The notes under the pieces: model-generated
The model's database searches: none
What the model saw: only the letters and a program-made list of their open reading frames with translations
Told to the model about the DNA's origin: nothing
In this document: positions 3,638-35,301 of the stretch, one piece after another
How the letters are laid out: each line of letters opens with the position of its first letter
How positions within the stretch are numbered: position 1 is the first letter of the stretch
Origin: a virus
Reading direction: 5' to 3' (one strand)
DNA length: 35,301 nt
IMG/VR virus record: IMGVR_UViG_3300032220_000304
Location: 1-35,301 of that record
Program-made: the position numbers and the translations under genes

Positions 3638-5200
3638 ATGGCAGGCAGACCCAAGCGGCGGGCTAGATTAGCAGCGGAGGCGGCGGCGCGAGCCGCTGCC
3701 GAAGCGGAAACCAATGGTGGCGCCCCACCAGCCGAAACCATTTCGCTGACATCAGCAAAATGGTCTGAAGCACCCCCACCCCCTGCTGCCCCCGCTGCTC
3801 CGACACCCGAGGAACAGGCGGCAATCATCGAGCAACTGGCGACAGACCCGGTGTTGTTCGTTGAATCGATGCTTGGCGCCACCCCGCAAAAGTGGCAGGC
3901 TGATGCGCTCAGGGCCATCGCCAGTAATGACCGTGTAGCGATTCGCTCCGGCCATGGCGTTGGCAAAACCGCGTTCTTGTCCTGGCTGGTGTTGTGGTGG
4001 TTGCTTACCAGATTGCCAACCAAGGTGGTTTGCACCGCCAACACGGCGCACCAGTTGTCTGACGTCTTGTGGTCTGAGATCGGGAAGTGGCACCGCAAGC
4101 TGCCCGAGGGAATGCGGCGCCTCCTCGAAATCAAATCCGACAAGATCGAATTGGCTGGCGTCCCCGACAGCTTCGCGGTGGCCAGAACCAGCCGCCGGGA
4201 GCAGCCCGAAGCCTTGCAGGGGTTCCACAGTGAGAACCTTCTCTTTGTGATTGACGAGGCATCTGGCGTCCCTGATATTGTATTCGAGGTTGGTCAGGGT
4301 GCCTTGTCCACTGAGGGCGCCAAGGTGGTAATGACCGGGAACCCCACGCGCACCACGGGTTATTTTTATGATGCGTTCAACAAGAACCGCAAGCGGTGGT
4401 GGGGCAAGAAGGTCAGTTGTCACGATGCGGATACGGTGGACAAGGCTTTCTTAGAGGACATGGTGGCGCAGTATGGTGATGGGTCAAATCAGTATCGTGT
4501 ACGCGTTCTTGGAGAGTTTCCTGCTGGAGATGATGATGCTCTTATTGCGCGACATCTTATAGAGAGTGCGACTACCAGGCCGGTGGAACCCAGCCAAACG
4601 GCGCCCGTGGTGTGGGGGTTGGATGTGGCGCGGTTTGGCGATGACAGTACGACGCTGGCCAAGCGCCGGGGCAATGCGATTACTGAGCCGATTAAGATGT
4701 GGCGCGGCAAAGACCTGATGGAAACGTGTGGTTTGATCAAGGTTGAGTGGGATGCGACGCCCGGCAGTATGCGGCCCCAGGAAATCTTGGTCGATGTGAT
4801 TGGCTTGGGCGCGGGTGTGGTGGATCGGCTGCGTGAATTAAAACTCCCCGTCCGTGGGATCAACGTCGCGGAGTTACCAGCATTGGATGGGCACCGCTTT
4901 AGCCGCCTAAGAGATGAACTCTGGTGGAAGGCTAGGGAGTGGTTTGAGCAGCGGGATTGCACCATTCCGAATGATGAGGCTTTGGTGGATGAGTTGTGTG
5001 GTCCGCTGTACACGGTGACGAGTGCGGGCAAGATACAGATTGAGCCGAAGTCTCAAATGAAGCGGCGGTTAGGGCGCAGCCCCGACAAGGCGGATGCTTT
5101 TTGTCTTACCTTTGCCAGCACGGCGGCGGTGGTCAGTGGTGGTGGGTATTCGTTGAAGTGGGGCCAGCCATTGCGGCGCAATGTGAAGGGGGTTGTGTGA
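3638..5200 (+). CDS. terL: Terminase large subunit (packaging ATPase/nuclease)
   Basis: This 520-residue motor and nuclease packages DNA into the prohead. An Ala/Pro-rich N-terminal tail (1-58) precedes the ATPase domain. Walker A is RSGHGVGKT (103-111), Walker B is LLFVIDEA (201-208), and TGNPT (233-237) fits the coupling motif. The RNase H-fold nuclease shows the expected acidic residues: D329 in GLDVARFGDDS, D386 in ILVDVIG, and D483/D486 in RSPDKADAF. All key residues are present, so the enzyme should be active. Its stop overlaps the GTG of the glycosyltransferase gene. The ATG at 3638 has only a weak AGG-type ribosome binding site. Confidence 0.96.
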   Translation: MAGRPKRRARLAAEAAARAAAEAETNGGAPPAETISLTSAKWSEAPPPPAAPAAPTPEEQAAIIEQLATDPVLFVESMLGATPQKWQADALRAIASNDRVAIRSGHGVGKTAFLSWLVLWWLLTRLPTKVVCTANTAHQLSDVLWSEIGKWHRKLPEGMRRLLEIKSDKIELAGVPDSFAVARTSRREQPEALQGFHSENLLFVIDEASGVPDIVFEVGQGALSTEGAKVVMTGNPTRTTGYFYDAFNKNRKRWWGKKVSCHDADTVDKAFLEDMVAQYGDGSNQYRVRVLGEFPAGDDDALIARHLIESATTRPVEPSQTAPVVWGLDVARFGDDSTTLAKRRGNAITEPIKMWRGKDLMETCGLIKVEWDATPGSMRPQEILVDVIGLGAGVVDRLRELKLPVRGINVAELPALDGHRFSRLRDELWWKAREWFEQRDCTIPNDEALVDELCGPLYTVTSAGKIQIEPKSQMKRRLGRSPDKADAFCLTFASTAAVVSGGGYSLKWGQPLRRNVKGVV

Positions 5201-5802
5201 GGTATTATTGTATTTCCCTGCGCGAGACGCCTGAACGCACGGCGCGTGTTCAGCAGGAATTTGAGCGCGAGGGGGTGCCGGTCACTTGGGTCTGGGGCAT
5301 CTATGGCAAGTCGATGCAGATCAAGTCTGAGATACCGATGCACTCGGATTACTTTGTGACGCGGGGTGCTACGGCGCTGGTTCTTAGCCATCACATGGCG
5401 TGGAACCTGGCGGAGCATGACCAAGCGGACGAGTTTATGGTGTTCGAGGATGATGTAGTATTACCGGAAAACTTTCTGGAAAGATGGGCTGCTATCCGCG
5501 CCAAGGTGGATGATGATGTGGATGGGGTCTATTTGCAGAGTTGTTGTGTGGATGACCAGAAGTGGAAGCGCAAGCACCGGGATGAATTGTGGGATGTGCG
5601 GTATCCGCTTTGCACGGCGGCTATTTGGTGGCGCCAGCGGGCCATTCCGACGTTGATTGAGCATACCAAGCCAGCGAATACGCCGGTTGATATTCTGCTG
5701 GAGCAGAAGGTGTTGCCTAAGTTGAAGGTGCTGACGGTGTTGCCCGAACTGGTCAGCCAGTTGACGTTGCAGGGTAAAATGTCGAGCGAGGTTCACGCAT
5801 GA
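5197..5802 (+). CDS. GT25-like glycosyltransferase
   Basis: The GTG at 5197 overlaps the terminase stop (GTGA) and sits behind an AAGGGGG site. An earlier in-frame start at 5101 would lie deep in the terminase gene and is rejected. The 201-residue product starts with the family signature YYCISLRETPER and carries EDD at 84-86 (FMVFEDDVVLPENF), the expected acidic metal/sugar-nucleotide site of glycosyltransferase family 25 (LPS-type). It is the first of three overlapping genes with likely glycan functions (5197-7249). The substrate cannot be predicted. Host surface modification and virion glycosylation are both possible. Confidence 0.85.
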   Translation: MRYYCISLRETPERTARVQQEFEREGVPVTWVWGIYGKSMQIKSEIPMHSDYFVTRGATALVLSHHMAWNLAEHDQADEFMVFEDDVVLPENFLERWAAIRAKVDDDVDGVYLQSCCVDDQKWKRKHRDELWDVRYPLCTAAIWWRQRAIPTLIEHTKPANTPVDILLEQKVLPKLKVLTVLPELVSQLTLQGKMSSEVHA

Positions 5803-6359
5803 ACGAGATGGCGCATTTGGGCGGTTATTATGAGGAAGGCGACGGGCACACGTTCACGCCGGATGTCTGGGGCTGGTTGTTGCTGGAGTATGGCGTTGAG
5901 TCTGTGATTGATGTCGGGTGTGGCACGGCGGTCAATCTGAAGTGGTTTCAGGATATGGGGTGCCGGGTGCTGGGGGTAGAGGGGCACCCAGACGCTATTT
6001 TGAAGGCGAAGTGTGGCCCGATTATCTTGCATGATTACACCAAGGGACCGCTGGACATTGGGCAGCGGTTTGACTTGTGTATTTCCACGGAGTTCGTGGA
6101 GCATGTTGACGCGAAGTATGAGGATAACTGGTTTGCTACCATGCGGTGTGCGGATCGGGTGTTGATGTGTCATGCGGTGCCGGGCCAGGGCGGGCACCAT
6201 CATGTGAATGAGCAAACGGCGGAATACTGGATAGAGAAGTTTGGCCAGCACGGGTTTCGTAATCTGGTGGTGGAAAGCGCCATGTTTCAGGAGACAACGC
6301 GGCGCAAGCCAGCCCCTTGGGGGCGGAATACGCTGATGTTGTTCGAGAAGGTAGCATGA
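5799..6359 (+). CDS. SAM-dependent methyltransferase
   Basis: This 186-residue class I methyltransferase begins at an ATGA overlap with the glycosyltransferase. Motif I is VIDVGCGTA (36-44), followed by the acidic strand end GVEGHP (59-64). FDLCISTEFVEHV is the typical post-motif region of Methyltransf_11/23-type enzymes that act on small molecules and sugars. No DNA-methyltransferase catalytic motif (DPPY or PCQ) is visible, so base methylation is unlikely. The context, between a glycosyltransferase and a beta-propeller glycosidase-like protein, argues for methylation of a sugar or glycan; this is inference. Confidence 0.88.
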   Translation: MNEMAHLGGYYEEGDGHTFTPDVWGWLLLEYGVESVIDVGCGTAVNLKWFQDMGCRVLGVEGHPDAILKAKCGPIILHDYTKGPLDIGQRFDLCISTEFVEHVDAKYEDNWFATMRCADRVLMCHAVPGQGGHHHVNEQTAEYWIEKFGQHGFRNLVVESAMFQETTRRKPAPWGRNTLMLFEKVA

Positions 6360-7249
6360 TTTTAAGCCAGTTTCCTGGCGCGGAGCGTGTGGAGATCAAG
6401 CTGCCAAGTGAAATGGCGGCTTGTAATCCTTCCATTGCGTGGGATGGGGACAAGATCAGGGCGGTAGTGCGGACGGTGAATTACCGTTTGTTGCCCAGTT
6501 GCTCTATTTGGATCAAGGGCAGCGCACCGGATACGGTAAATTGGCTGGTGGAGATGGATACCGCCAGCCTGGCGCAATTATCGGCGGTCCAGATCGACGA
6601 TACGGAGATCAGGCAATCCCCCGTCTGTAAAGATGGCTTGGAGGATATGCGGTTATTTGCCTGGAAGGGGGGCTGGTGGGGTTTGGCCAGCGGGCATTCC
6701 AGCCGAAATGATGCAAACACGATGGTTTTGGCGCCAGTTTCCCCGGTTATGACGGAAAAACAGGTGCTTTTGTCGCCAAATGGCGAGAAAAAGGAAAAGA
6801 ACTGGGGCATTTATGTGGATGGGCAAGATTTGAAGCTAGTGCATTGGTTTTGCCCGGTTTCTGTGTACAAGTTTGGCGGTAGCCCGGTGTTAGAACCCAT
6901 GTTTTACGGGGATGGTCGGGCAGATTTGGTGGGGTGGAGTGGGTCCAGCCAGATTGTACCGCATAAGGGCCGTTTGGTGACTTGTTTACATCGCCGTTTT
7001 GGCGAGAAGAATGGCAAGAAGCCGATTTATTACGCGCACCGGCTGGTGGAGTATGATGTGGATACTTGGGATGTGACCAGGGTATCTCCCATTTTCTTGT
7101 TTGAGGCGGAGCAGATAGAGTTCAATTCGGGGTTGGTAATTACCCCGGAAAATGTGTTATTTAGCTACGGGGTCATGGATGCGGCGGCGGTGGTGTTGCG
7201 GTTGCCGATTGGGGCCTTGGACATGATTTTTGAGGGGCGGATTGGATGA
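6356..7249 (+). CDS. GH130-like five-bladed beta-propeller protein
   Basis: The start is the ATG at 6356, in an ATGA overlap with the methyltransferase stop. The 297-residue protein has a repeated blade-like pattern: NPSIAWDGD (24-32), EDMRLFAW (96-103), EKNWGIYV (147-154) and GSSQIVPHKGRLVTCLHRR (196-214). It ends with a strand pair around VLFSYGVMDAAAVVLRLP. This spacing resembles GH130/GH43-type glycoside phosphorylases and hydrolases, where the Asp of the ED-R motif is the acid. The family match is by eye. It could cleave, bind or remodel a glycan built with the two upstream enzymes. It overlaps the next gene by ATGA. Confidence 0.65.
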   Translation: MILSQFPGAERVEIKLPSEMAACNPSIAWDGDKIRAVVRTVNYRLLPSCSIWIKGSAPDTVNWLVEMDTASLAQLSAVQIDDTEIRQSPVCKDGLEDMRLFAWKGGWWGLASGHSSRNDANTMVLAPVSPVMTEKQVLLSPNGEKKEKNWGIYVDGQDLKLVHWFCPVSVYKFGGSPVLEPMFYGDGRADLVGWSGSSQIVPHKGRLVTCLHRRFGEKNGKKPIYYAHRLVEYDVDTWDVTRVSPIFLFEAEQIEFNSGLVITPENVLFSYGVMDAAAVVLRLPIGALDMIFEGRIG

Positions 7250-7554
7250 AATCCCCAGCCTGGACGCGGAAAGCCGGAAAAAACCCCTCGGGTGGTTTGA
7301 ATGAGGCTGGCCGTCGTTCTTATGAGGCGGCTAATCCGGGTTCTAATTTGAAGGCGCCGGTGAAGGCGGGGGACAATCCTCGCCGGGCTAATTTCTTGGC
7401 GCGGATGGGCAATATGCCTGGCCCGGAGCGTGATGCGAAGGGTGAGCCGACGCGGCTGTTGAAATCGCTTCAGGCATGGGGCGCTTCCAGTAAGGCGGAC
7501 GCTAAGGCGAAGGCCAAGGCTATTTCGTCCCGTAACAAGGAGAAATCCAAATGA
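7246..7554 (+). CDS. DUF6321-like basic protein
   Basis: This 102-residue strongly basic protein has the pattern SPAWTRKAGKNPSGGLNEAGRRSY at its N-terminus, then ARMGNMPGPERDAKGEPTR. It resembles DUF6321-type proteins found in many phages, whose function is unknown. The high Lys/Arg content and Gly/Pro-rich motifs suggest nucleic acid contact or an extended structural peptide. It is coupled on both sides by ATGA overlaps, and it joins the glycan cassette to the head genes. Confidence 0.75.
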   Translation: MKSPAWTRKAGKNPSGGLNEAGRRSYEAANPGSNLKAPVKAGDNPRRANFLARMGNMPGPERDAKGEPTRLLKSLQAWGASSKADAKAKAKAISSRNKEKSK

Positions 7555-7871: not shown

Positions 7872-8329
7872 TGCAATGCCCGAAGGCAACCTATGATCTT
7901 GAAGAAAATGTGGAGTACCGTGATCGGGCGTTCAAGGATTTCGGTTATGGTCCTGCTAACCCGAATAGCGAGGATGACTTCTTCTGGAAACTCCGGGCGC
8001 AGGAATGGAATACGTCTGCTGATGAGGCTAAGACGATGCGGTGTGGTAATTGCGCCGCGTTCATCCAGACCCCGGAAATGATGGCTTGTATTGTTAAGGG
8101 CATCCAGGGGGAAGAGAGCAACGATGAGACGTATGCGCCCGAAGTATCTAAGGCGGCGAACTTGGGCTATTGTGAATTGTTGGAGTTCAAATGTGCGGCA
8201 TCGCGCACTTGTAGCGCGTGGTTAGTTGGTGGTCCGATTACCAAGCCGATGACCAAGCGCCAGCGCGAGACGGTTTTGATGGCGAAGGTGATGTTGCCCC
8301 AGGGCGACGATGAAGAGGAAGATAGCTGA
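7871..8329 (+). CDS. Cysteine-cluster protein, HiPIP-like
   Basis: The start is the ATG at 7871 (TGATG overlap). The 152-residue product has seven Cys: C3, C58, C61, C73, C101, C108 and C114. The central order CGNC, then C, then GYCELLEFKC, then CSAW resembles the cluster-binding arrangement of high-potential iron-sulfur-like small proteins seen in phages. A zinc site would also fit. The N-terminus is acidic and aromatic, and the C-terminus ends in an Asp/Glu tail. It sits between small head genes and a low-complexity protein, so it may be a virion or assembly protein. A second, shorter cysteine protein lies at 34579-34764. Confidence 0.75.
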   Translation: MQCPKATYDLEENVEYRDRAFKDFGYGPANPNSEDDFFWKLRAQEWNTSADEAKTMRCGNCAAFIQTPEMMACIVKGIQGEESNDETYAPEVSKAANLGYCELLEFKCAASRTCSAWLVGGPITKPMTKRQRETVLMAKVMLPQGDDEEEDS

Positions 8330-9957
8330 TGTCTGATACTTGGTCCTGGCAGTTTAATCCGCTTCTTCGCCCTGTTGCAACGTATGATGCGCCTGGCGAG
8401 CATCGCTTCTTTCAGCCGATGCGGACGCGCCCTGAAGCGCCTCCTGTTGTTAATCAGGACCAAAGGTTTTGGGAAGGTGATGGCGATTGGACGCCGACAT
8501 CTGTTGGGCGTGGTGCGCTGACCAGCACGGGTGATCCTGTTCGTGACTTTGAAATGATAACGAACGACTCCGGCACCATGAATGCGCTTATGGCGCTGGC
8601 TACGGGTCCGGTTGGTGCGGTCAGTATTGCGCTTGGAACTCTTCTTAATCAGGCGGCGGGTGTTCCGGGTGTGAACTCTCTTGGCGGGTTCTTGTTGGAT
8701 CGTGCCCGCGAATTGGATTTGACGCCAGAACAGGTCACTGCGTTGCGTGAGTCCCAGCAGGGGCAATACAACACGCAGCGGCGCCTTAGCGATGATCGCC
8801 AGACGACGCGGGAAGATTTGGCGCCCATCAGTAGTACGCTGAACCCCAATGTTACCTCTTTGTTGGATACGACGGGGCAGACGGCGACTAATGTTGCTTC
8901 TACGGCGGATACGGGGAACATCACCAAGACTGCTTCTGACGTTACCTCTTTGTTGGATACGGGCGCTACCGATCTGACTACTTCTAAGGGGCCAGGCACC
9001 ACAGCAGCCACCACAGACACGGGCGCCATCACCAAGACACTGACTGATTTGGGTAATGTGGTGAACCCGAACATTACTTCTCTGTTGGATGTTTATCCGG
9101 CTGATGGTGAAGACGCTACTGGCGTTACAGGCGACTTCGGCATGGGTGAGCAGGCTGCTGGTTTTGCGACTGATGTTGCTGAAGGTCGCATGACCCAGCA
9201 AGAAGCGTTGAATGCCATGGCTGCAACGGTGTCTGATTTGACGGGGGTTCCGGCTGCTGATTTGGCCGCGATGGCGGACCAGCTTGGCCGCGATGTTGCT
9301 GAAGGCAAGGTTGGCTTGAATGAGGCGATTGCTTCAATGATGGCTGACGTTACGGCTGCTGCGCCATCTGATGAAGAAGCAGCAACAGCGGCACAAACCT
9401 CATTAGATAAGGCCGCGTCTGATTTGGAAGCGGCATTAGATAATGTCGCTGGGATGTTTGGCGCCCCTGCTGCCCCATCTGACGAAGACACAGACGACGA
9501 AGCCGCCGCCCAATCAGTGGCGGACGCTATGGCGGAAGCCCAGGCAGCGGCAGACGCGGAAGCGGCGGCTGAAGCAGCGGCGGCAGAAGCAGCAGCGGCG
9601 GAAGCAGCGGCAGCAGCAGCGGACGCGGCGGCTTCTGATGCCGGTGAAGGCGAAGGGGATGGCGACGGAGACGGCGACGGAGATGGGGACGGTGGCGATG
9701 GCAGCGGTGACGGCGGCGGAGATGGCGACGGTGGTGGCGGCGGCGATGGCGGCGGAGACGGCGGCGGCGACGGTGGCTACCGGAAGGGTGGTTTGGTAAA
9801 GGGCAAGAAGAAGAATGCCCCGGTCAAAACCACGGTCCATGTCGGTGAATATGTCATGCGCCCGGAAGCCGTTAATATGTATGGCTTGGGCTTGTTGAAT
9901 GCTATTAACGAGCAGCGTATTCCGAAACGCCGGTTCACCGGCTTGCTGGGTGATTAA
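8329..9957 (+). CDS. Ala- and Asp/Gly-rich putative virion protein
   Basis: This 542-residue protein begins in a TGATG overlap. It has an ordinary N-terminus (1-150) and Thr/Asp-rich repeats around residues 175-260 with recurring NPNVTSLLD-like units. An Ala/Glu-rich helical segment (about 390-440) is followed by a near-pure Asp/Gly tract (about 441-482). It ends with YRKGGLV and VHVGEYVMRPEAVNMYGLGLLNAIN, a C-terminal motif I associate with phage structural proteins next to the portal. The function is unknown. The flexible acidic tract looks like a linker and may bind cations. It is followed immediately by the portal gene. Confidence 0.8.
   Translation: MSDTWSWQFNPLLRPVATYDAPGEHRFFQPMRTRPEAPPVVNQDQRFWEGDGDWTPTSVGRGALTSTGDPVRDFEMITNDSGTMNALMALATGPVGAVSIALGTLLNQAAGVPGVNSLGGFLLDRARELDLTPEQVTALRESQQGQYNTQRRLSDDRQTTREDLAPISSTLNPNVTSLLDTTGQTATNVASTADTGNITKTASDVTSLLDTGATDLTTSKGPGTTAATTDTGAITKTLTDLGNVVNPNITSLLDVYPADGEDATGVTGDFGMGEQAAGFATDVAEGRMTQQEALNAMAATVSDLTGVPAADLAAMADQLGRDVAEGKVGLNEAIASMMADVTAAAPSDEEAATAAQTSLDKAASDLEAALDNVAGMFGAPAAPSDEDTDDEAAAQSVADAMAEAQAAADAEAAAEAAAAEAAAAEAAAAAADAAASDAGEGEGDGDGDGDGDGDGGDGSGDGGGDGDGGGGGDGGGDGGGDGGYRKGGLVKGKKKNAPVKTTVHVGEYVMRPEAVNMYGLGLLNAINEQRIPKRRFTGLLGD
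8851..8961 (+). repeat. 21-bp direct repeat encoding TSLLD units
   Basis: The bases 8851-8871 are repeated exactly at 8941-8961, 90 bp apart and in frame, encoding the same VTSLLDT unit. A third diverged unit follows near 9073-9090. This is a recent in-frame duplication inside the Thr/Asp-rich region. Confidence 0.85.
9499..9780 (+). repeat. Low-complexity Ala then Asp/Gly coding tract
   Basis: About 280 bases of simple repeat encode an Ala/Glu helix and then about 40 residues that are almost only Asp and Gly. The second half is purine-rich GGCGAC/GGAGAT units, a likely site of replication slippage and of assembly length errors. Confidence 0.85.
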
Positions 9958-14453: not shown

Positions 14454-14759
14454 ATGGCTGACAAGGTTTTCAACATTGATCCGGTAAGTGGGATTACTTC
14501 TTACTGGCATTATGATGAGGGCACGGATACGGCGCTGATTGAGAAGCGCCAGGATGTGTCTGGTATTATTGAAGCCAATAAGGCGCAGTTTAATGAAGAT
14601 CACGGGCGTTATGGCGAATGGAACAAGGTGGCTTCCATCCCCATGGCGGTCTTTTATGATTTGAAGATAAAGGGCATCGTGGATGACCCGGTAGCCATGA
14701 AGAAGTGGCTGAATGATCCAGATAATCGGTTCTTCCGTACCAGACCGGGGCGCGTTTGA
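14454..14759 (+). CDS. Small protein after capsid, 101 aa
   Basis: I recognise the pattern but not a function: similar 90-110 residue proteins with WNKVASIPMAVFYDLK, then a short acidic DDPVAMKKWLNDPDNRFFRTRPGR ending, commonly follow capsid genes in podovirus-like phages. It has no Cys cluster, signal peptide or membrane segment. Its ribosome binding site lies within the hairpin arm at 14444-14450, so translation may be lower than that of the capsid gene. Its stop overlaps the next start (TGATG). A head-tail joining role is possible. Confidence 0.8.
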   Translation: MADKVFNIDPVSGITSYWHYDEGTDTALIEKRQDVSGIIEANKAQFNEDHGRYGEWNKVASIPMAVFYDLKIKGIVDDPVAMKKWLNDPDNRFFRTRPGRV

Positions 14760-15385
14760 TGCCCGCCATTGTTTCTGTCTGTGTCCCTTGCCGCGATGTG
14801 GTGGATAGCGGGTTTGCCTTCGATCTAGCCCGGTGCGTTGCGGCCCATACGGCAGCGACAAAGGACAGGGTGCTGCTGTTCCAGAACCAAGGGACGCTGA
14901 TTGTAAACCAGCGGCAGGAATTGGCCCAGGCTTCCTTGGACGCTGGCGCTACCCATGTCCTGTTTGTGGATGCCGACATGAGGTTCCCGAAGGACAGCAT
15001 CCGGCAGCTATTGGCGCGGGATGAAGATATTGTGGCGGCTAATTACAGTACGCGCAAATTACCTCTCCAGCCGGTGGCTTTCCGTGACGATCTGACCAGC
15101 GAGCGGGTTTATACGGAAGAGTGGTGTACTGGGCTGGAAGAGGTGTCCGCCATTGGGATGGGGCTGATGCTGATTAAGGCTGAAGTTTTCCGCAAGATGG
15201 CGAAGCCTTGGTTTCACATACACTACCAAAATGGTGTATATAGCGGCGAGGACATCTGGTTCTGCCGGTCAGCCAGGGAAACAGGGTTTAAGGTGATGTT
15301 GGACCACGATATTAGCCATCATGTGCGCCATATCGGGGCTTTCGAGTTTTCCTGCGCCCATGCGGCTGCTTCTAGGGGTGAATGA
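14759..15385 (+). CDS. GT2-like glycosyltransferase
   Basis: The start is ATG 14759, overlapping the preceding stop. The 208-residue product fits a GT-A fold, family 2-like: VSVCVPCRDVV strand at the N-terminus, HVLFVDADMRFPKDSI with the DAD metal-binding motif near residues 64-72, and YSGEDIWFCRSARETGFKV near the C-terminus, where ED is the usual acceptor-side acidic pair. It lacks membrane segments, so it would be cytosolic. It lies between capsid and adaptor genes, remote from the GT25/methyltransferase cassette, yet could act in the same modification. Glycosylation of a virion protein is an attractive hypothesis given this position. Confidence 0.85.
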   Translation: MPAIVSVCVPCRDVVDSGFAFDLARCVAAHTAATKDRVLLFQNQGTLIVNQRQELAQASLDAGATHVLFVDADMRFPKDSIRQLLARDEDIVAANYSTRKLPLQPVAFRDDLTSERVYTEEWCTGLEEVSAIGMGLMLIKAEVFRKMAKPWFHIHYQNGVYSGEDIWFCRSARETGFKVMLDHDISHHVRHIGAFEFSCAHAAASRGE

Positions 15386-34881: not shown

Positions 34882-35301
34882 GCCTGACCGCACCAAGCCT
34901 ATCAGCGCCCGCCAAAGAATGGGCGCTCTATTACCTACGGCGCGGGTGGTCCGTGGTGCCGGTCAGACGGGGCGAAAAAATCCCCGCCATTCCCTGGCAC
35001 CAATTCCAAAACCGACGCGCTACCGAAGCCGAGATTCAGGACTGGTTTGCCGATCCCACCATGGGGGTCGGGATCGTGACCGGCGCCATCAGTAACCTCA
35101 CTGTGGCGGATTTCGATGGCGACATTGGCGCCGCTACCGAACAAGACATCCTGCCCCGACTCGGGGCTGGCCCCGTTGCCCTCACCGGGGGCGGCGGGTG
35201 TCATAGGTTCTTTTCCCATCCTGGGAAGAAGGTTCCCACCAGAAAAGGTATCCTGCCGGGGATGGACATCCGGGGCGATGGTGGCTTCATTGTCGCGCCG
35301 C
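34878..35301 (+). CDS. Primase-polymerase / helicase, N-terminal part (continues at base 3/124)
   Basis: The 141 complete codons here are the N-terminus of the replication protein that continues to 1754 through the 123-bp overlap. Prim-Pol-type features are visible: an N-terminal helix ending GWSVVPVRRGEKIPAIPW (about residues 23-40), a DWFADPTMGVGIVTG stretch (about 54-68), VADFDGD (74-80) as the metal-binding acidic motif, and VALTGGGGCHRFF (about 99-111). The ATG overlaps the leader ORF stop. The frame is open to the window end, in phase with the left end. Confidence 0.93.
   Translation, partial: MSLTAPSLSAPAKEWALYYLRRGWSVVPVRRGEKIPAIPWHQFQNRRATEAEIQDWFADPTMGVGIVTGAISNLTVADFDGDIGAATEQDILPRLGAGPVALTGGGGCHRFFSHPGKKVPTRKGILPGMDIRGDGGFIVAP
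35179..35301. repeat. Right copy of 123-bp terminal direct repeat
   Basis: Exact duplicate of bases 1-123. Joining the copies gives one continuous primase-helicase frame of 684 residues without a gap or frameshift. Confidence 0.95.

Follow-up and report, generated by a model that had tools for sequence, protein, structure and literature searches.

Known systems and the phage cassette

In the GH130 family, phosphorylases are cytoplasmic whereas hydrolases are secreted (PMC4599007), and GT108 enzymes, whose fold is that of GH130, act both as transferases and as phosphorylases (PMC8950772). Glycosyltransferases encoded by mycobacteriophages Che8 and Rita modify virion proteins, and covalent glycans are known on mycobacteriophage capsid proteins; no GH130-like propeller was found among the systems described there (PMC11256854). 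The present analysis concerns the 35,301-nucleotide virus record IMGVR_UViG_3300032220_000304 (positions 1 to 35,301, hereafter the window), in which three genes directly behind the large terminase gene encode a GT25-family glycosyltransferase, a methyltransferase and a beta-propeller enzyme with a GH130/GT108-like fold. This cassette is known from genomic evidence only, and its three linked genes very likely build a modified sugar. A first-pass annotation had placed three overlapping genes at 5197-7249 and read them as a single glycan-modification cassette; the coordinates and the GTGA/ATGA overlaps were confirmed, and the reading is upheld by Pfam matches, fold and co-conservation and strengthened by a propeller-GT25 fusion in a distant phage. 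The genes of the cassette and its two borders are as follows.

3638..5200, plus strand: large terminase subunit (TerL), left border of the cargo site (phrog_2, E=5e-51; 62% identity to TerL of phage C72C1)
5197..5802, plus strand: GT25-family glycosyltransferase, 201 residues, GTG start (PF01755, E=3.3e-14)
5799..6359, plus strand: class-I S-adenosylmethionine (SAM)-dependent methyltransferase, 186 residues (PF08241, E=1.2e-7)
6356..7249, plus strand: GH130/GT108-like beta-propeller enzyme, 297 residues (AF2 fold, Foldseek, D97 in the GLED motif)
7246..7554, plus strand: DUF6321 protein, right border of the cargo site (Pfam PF19846, E=1.6e-23)

Successive genes of this series overlap by four bases, GTGA for GT25 and ATGA for the later ones. 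The propeller start was placed at the ATG at 6356, the upstream TTG at 6317 in the open reading frame list being unnecessary.

Compared with the GH130 mannoside phosphorylases and synthases Teth514_1788 (9fj8) and Uhgb_MS (9erg), the phage propeller shares the five-bladed fold in a whole-length match (TM 0.65-0.66), an NPS motif close to the N-terminus, the catalytic aspartate (D97) within GLED, the aspartate of the final GxxD motif and a cytoplasmic location. Unlike these enzymes, it is 11-14% identical to them in sequence, falls below the Pfam and NCBIfam cut-offs, is viral and lies in biosynthetic cassettes, whereas GH130 genes lie in catabolic loci. The Leishmania GT108 enzymes MPT-2 (6q4x, TM 0.61) and MPT-4 (6q50) have the same fold (TM 0.58-0.61), have likewise diverged from GH130 in sequence and are used for synthesis; however, they are eukaryotic, are concerned with storage mannan and score lower against the phage propeller than GH130 does. 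Annotated homologues in viruses are the propellers of cyanophages S-SCSM2R and DSL-LC02 and of Actinomycetia phage DSL-LC01 (24-26% identity), annotated as 'beta-mannosyltransferase' or 'MGP' and lying beside FkbM or other methyltransferases, in DSL-LC02 also beside tail-fibre genes. These phages are much larger, and there the partner of the propeller is a TPR/FkbM protein, not GT25 with a Methyltransf_11-type methyltransferase.

Fold and catalytic residues of the propeller

The propeller had no match in Pfam, PHROG or NCBIfam. Comparison at the level of fold was needed because sequence and profile searches gave chance or weak matches: a direct sequence search of the PDB returned chance matches to lysozyme only, and profile searches gave weak GH130 matches (E 0.04-0.6). 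An AF2 model, for which the alignment held 62 natural homologues, reached a pLDDT of 87.2 and a pTM of 0.89. When this model was compared with the PDB by Foldseek, the first 32 ranks were filled entirely by members of GH130 or GT108 (E=1e-9 to 3e-7), led by the Uhgb_MS mannoside synthase, the Listeria beta-1,2-mannobiose phosphorylase, RaMP1 and Teth514_1788, and including Leishmania MPT-2 (GT108), also as its inactive D94N variant, and MPT-4. The GH130 matches covered the whole five-bladed domain at TM 0.6-0.67. A structural match to GH130 had been named beforehand as the point on which the assignment could fail, and it was GH130 enzymes that ranked first.

Profile-profile comparison by hhalign with bacterial GH130 sequences aligned 262-265 columns across the whole domain with a probability of 94-96%, and in such comparisons D97 falls on the aspartate of the GH130 G-[IL]-E-D motif, which is the invariant candidate acid of that family (PMC4599007). 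Residues D97, R39, R99, K148, H212 and D275 are invariant across 62 propeller relatives; in all, D97 and 23 further positions are invariant at about 25-30% identity. As the window propeller has no match to the Pfam GH130 family (PF04041), its best relative scoring 21.4 bits against a cut-off of 26, we describe it as GH130/GT108-like on the grounds of its fold and catalytic residue, without assigning it to GH130. An attempt to place the phosphate-site residues by hhalign, and to match the lysine that confers beta-1,2 specificity in BT3780 (Lys199) to K148, yields no claim here, since the alignment shifts by 2-3 residues in its middle part.

Glycosyltransferase and methyltransferase partners

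The window GT25 protein scores 53.7 bits against a Pfam PF01755 cut-off of 24, carries the acidic metal-binding motif EDD (FEDDVV) and also matches the PHROG glucosyltransferase family phrog_2835 (E=1e-8); no relative of it was found in the annotated phage collection. Its neighbour is, as judged from motifs and model, a class-I SAM methyltransferase: it scores 32.7 bits against the Methyltransf_11 (PF08241) cut-off of 21.2, has the SAM motif I DVGCGTAVNL and a conserved GGHHHVN motif, and its AF2 model (pLDDT 78) matches many class-I methyltransferases with the Rossmann methyltransferase fold. These Foldseek matches mix sugar N-methyltransferases (DesVI, TylM1, KedS8) with halide, UbiG and HEN1 methyltransferases. 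In the annotated phage collection the methyltransferase matches Caulobacter phage Cr30 alone, where it has no glycan neighbours. More distant phage relatives (L324-L329) are 38-42% identical to it, and in two of them (L324, L325) a GT25 gene above the Pfam cut-off adjoins without a propeller.

Conservation of the cassette as a unit

Close loci in IMG/VR numbered 27 for the propeller and 35 for GT25. Gene order was kept in all 16 loci that hold the three genes and have distinct methyltransferase sequences, and the spacing equals the overlaps of the window in 14 of them, being off by 3-6 bases in the remaining two. None of the relatives that carry one cassette gene and have room for neighbours lacked the other two, so that the co-occurrence expected by the first-pass annotation was indeed observed. 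Pairwise omega (GT25 0.06-0.10, methyltransferase 0.015-0.075, propeller 0.06-0.16) indicates purifying selection on all three genes. The propeller evolves faster than its partners, being 66% identical between the window and one relative (L114) at a similar dS to that of GT25 (91%) and the methyltransferase (88%), and this would fit a shift in specificity.

The position occupied by the cassette is shared with other genes. The right border, DUF6321, is 89-99% identical in relatives both with and without the cassette, and relatives insert other genes between TerL and GT25 or between the propeller and DUF6321, of which those before GT25 include:

L010:4021-4674 and L014:3009-3800: DNA methyltransferase
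L007:4378-4845: HNH-like nuclease

The same L007 locus also carries a protein of 556-562 residues as flanking cargo. Two relatives with TerL 93% (L138) and 87% (L142) identical to that of the window lack the whole cassette and have other cargo in its place, and it is likewise missing upstream of DUF6321 in L136. The variation of the flanks and the absence of the cassette as a whole indicate a cargo site within the packaging module, at which the cassette is gained or lost whole. It is carried by 27 of the 29 entries that include both flanks, a frequency that is biased because cassette genes served as some of the queries that retrieved the loci, and several of these entries are one and the same contig. 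A cargo protein of this site, with a constant N-terminus (MSETVDPRQRFLFSTLPGLL...) and varying C-terminal parts, occurs at L138:4177-5847, L136:315-1997, L007:6875-8563, L005:6875-7486 and L019:4020-4886; it looks polymorphic and is possibly injected or effector-like.

Fusions and neighbours in distant phages

In a set of 58 distant loci with propellers at 25-30% identity, the propeller is fused to a C-terminal domain in 19, with the following architectures among them.

L038: propeller-GT25 fusion
L033, L050, L063: propeller-FkbM methyltransferase-radical SAM/SPASM fusion
L037, L047: propeller-radical SAM/SPASM fusion
L086: propeller-GT17-methyltransferase fusion

A TPR or TPR-FkbM protein was found in 56 of the 58 loci, nearly always as the next gene, often overlapping, or in the same open reading frame. 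In eight loci (L062, L038, L086, L043, L034, L071, L076, L095) a GT25 domain is found no more than about 1.2 kb from the propeller, next to it in L071, L043, L086, L034 and L062; the search profile for these domains contained L038 and L062, and Pfam confirmed L038, L071 and, more weakly, L043. By contrast, the GT25, TPR-FkbM and propeller profiles had no match in 79 control phage loci fetched for other reasons. The gene directly upstream of the propeller is tail-fibre or collagen-like in L036, L039, L055, L060, L080 and cyanophage DSL-LC02. Thus the pairs GT25-methyltransferase, propeller-GT25 and propeller-methyltransferase recur independently, and the window cassette joins all three. In the TPR(-FkbM) proteins that follow the propeller (L029:6875-8740, L036:6921-8156 and similar), the N-terminal 180 residues are constant and the C-terminal domain varies.

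Distribution of the propeller family

The propeller had been described as unusual for a phage, a view that its distribution contradicts: at least 501 viral contigs encode a relative in a profile scan, against 10 matches among 84,980 prokaryote genomes, a contrast to be read qualitatively, as the search patterns differed slightly between the scans. Three of the five prokaryote matches examined in context (L195, L197, L200) are, judging by neighbouring genes, phage contigs binned into genomes. Propellers of this shape are also present in giant viruses in BFVD, some of them fused to nucleotidyltransferase or fucosyltransferase proteins. The window propeller therefore belongs to a large, almost purely viral family for which the libraries searched (Pfam, PHROG and NCBIfam) offered no model, and a literature search limited to open-licence papers found no description of phage GH130-like enzymes. 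A propeller relative on a Sphingomonas contig (L192:7908-8963) lies near a polysaccharide-transporter-like gene and is a probable rare cellular member of the family.

Function and target of the cassette

As a whole, the cassette is best explained as an exchangeable cargo module that would build a methylated glycan with an acceptor more likely on the virion than in host lipopolysaccharide (LPS), an explanation to which we give about an even chance. From the observed gene content, protein families, fold, conservation as a unit, distant fusions and neighbourhoods and exchangeability of the site, we infer the direction of the enzymatic reaction, the identity of the sugar, the order of the steps and the acceptor. 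The glycan would be made at a late stage of infection in the host cytoplasm: GT25 would transfer a sugar from its nucleotide-linked donor, the SAM methyltransferase would place a methyl group on a sugar, either of the glycan under construction or of its precursor, and the propeller would add or exchange a mannose-like residue by an inverting transferase or phosphorylase reaction. By hydropathy, all three proteins lack signal peptide-like and membrane segments, which argues for action in the cytoplasm, where the propeller probably works by transferring or phosphorolysing a mannose-like sugar. Synthesis or phosphorolysis is favoured over hydrolysis because the propeller lacks a signal peptide, has biosynthetic partners and has synthases, phosphorylases and mannosyltransferases as structural neighbours, and the GT108 enzymes offer a precedent for a transferase or phosphorylase that runs in the synthetic direction (PMC8950772). 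For the same reasons, of the proposal that the genes add, methylate and trim a sugar, the glycan-modification part stands but trimming is weakened, and it was rejected as the main role as less likely.

The acceptor would more likely be a phage virion protein, either tail fibre or capsid, and we consider the virion somewhat likelier than host LPS, since the tail-fibre adjacency in distant relatives makes the target lean that way. TPR modules, found beside most distant propellers, are common protein-recognition units, and the capsid glycans of mycobacteriophages provide a precedent (PMC11256854). Several points weigh against this interpretation. The window cassette lies beside packaging genes and not beside a tail-fibre gene, and its position is no proof of a virion target; the argument from late position is weak by itself because the TerL-DUF6321 site takes up cargo in general. 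Classically, GT25 enzymes belong to LPS synthesis. Transferase, phosphorylase and hydrolase are inseparable by sequence here because the phosphate-binding residues align unreliably, and the 79 control phage loci were drawn from two phage groups only.

It is possible, though distinctly less probable, that the cassette modifies LPS or another surface glycan of the host, with GT25 adding a core sugar, the methyltransferase capping it and the propeller adjusting it, which would block superinfection or the re-adsorption of progeny to debris. This would agree with the LPS-biosynthesis name of GT25 and with the well-established modification of LPS by phage-borne genes; the glycosyltransferases of the LPS core are cytoplasmic enzymes, which makes the missing membrane segments compatible with such a role, and one methyltransferase relative (L325) also adjoins a GT9 heptosyltransferase-like gene. 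However, the window has neither a flippase nor a Gtr-type membrane protein: the flippase GtrA and multi-pass GtrC-like protein of a Gtr-type O-antigen conversion cluster were not found, and no multi-pass membrane protein lies on a plausible reading frame in the window, where only antisense frames of 8329-9957 were flagged. Moreover, classical lysogenic conversion is not indicated, as there is no integrase among the right-arm genes tested, and it is tail-fibre genes that precede distant propeller relatives.

We regard it as improbable that the propeller is a hydrolase resembling GH130 beta-mannosidases that trims or recycles a glycan. Some GH130 enzymes are beta-1,2-mannosidases (PMC4599007), and two of these (3qc2, 5a7v) appear in the structural list, but GH130 hydrolases are secreted while the phage propeller has no hydrophobic N-terminal segment, its best structural matches are synthases and phosphorylases, and its partners and fusions are biosynthetic; the invariant basic residues R39, R99, K148 and H212 also speak against hydrolysis, although their correspondence to the phosphate site is unproven. 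That it has no catalytic role and only binds carbohydrate or serves as a structural element, for instance as a virion decoration travelling with two enzymes, is very improbable: propellers are common binding scaffolds, identity to characterised GH130 enzymes is low and the propeller outpaces its neighbours, but the catalytic aspartate and so many other positions are invariant and the propeller is fused to enzyme domains.

More broadly, and tentatively, the viral propellers may constitute a new glycosyltransferase family of GH130/GT108 fold that is nearly confined to viruses, namely tailed phages and, as judged by structure, giant viruses. Its members would decorate virion proteins with methylated, beta-linked glycans whose structure would depend on interchangeable partner domains (GT25, GT17, FkbM, radical SAM). 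Glycan modification by phages is already known; what would be new is a propeller family of this fold that is virus-borne and rare in cells. If the proposal is true, hundreds of aquatic phages are predicted to make glycans with mannose-like and methylated sugars. The propeller would be a directly testable enzyme, being small and soluble with one catalytic aspartate, and the family could be a source of biocatalysts for beta-mannosidic linkages, whose synthesis is difficult, and offers a route to testing virion glycosylation by environmental phages.

Genome setting and other features

The window is the complete genome of a small tailed phage, closed by a terminal direct repeat, and it contains a second glycosyltransferase candidate that is unlinked to the cassette.

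1-123 and 35179-35301: exact 123-base terminal direct repeat, indicating a complete, circularly closed assembly
14756..15385, plus strand: GT-A-like glycosyltransferase candidate, 209 residues, between major capsid and tail genes (phrog_1574, E=7e-22; phrog_12406 glycosyltransferase, E=2e-5)

The portal protein and TerL are nearest to those of phage C72C1, Sinorhizobium phage phiM5 and spring-water metagenome phages. Naming a host from the nearest isolates was abandoned, as the C72C1 record gives no host and phiM5 is only about 49% identical. The GC and GC3 of the cassette resemble those of the rest of the genome and show no compositional trace of recent import.

The second glycosyltransferase candidate matches Pfam Anp1 below the cut-off (E=8e-5) and has VDAD (VDADMRF) and GEDI motifs, of which DAD and GED are invariant in 20 aligned relatives. 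It is kept in close relatives, is about 38-41% identical in another phage group, and is a possible further partner of the cassette. The region 8329-9957 encodes a 542-residue protein rich in alanine, aspartate and glycine that has no family match and varies strongly in length among relatives.

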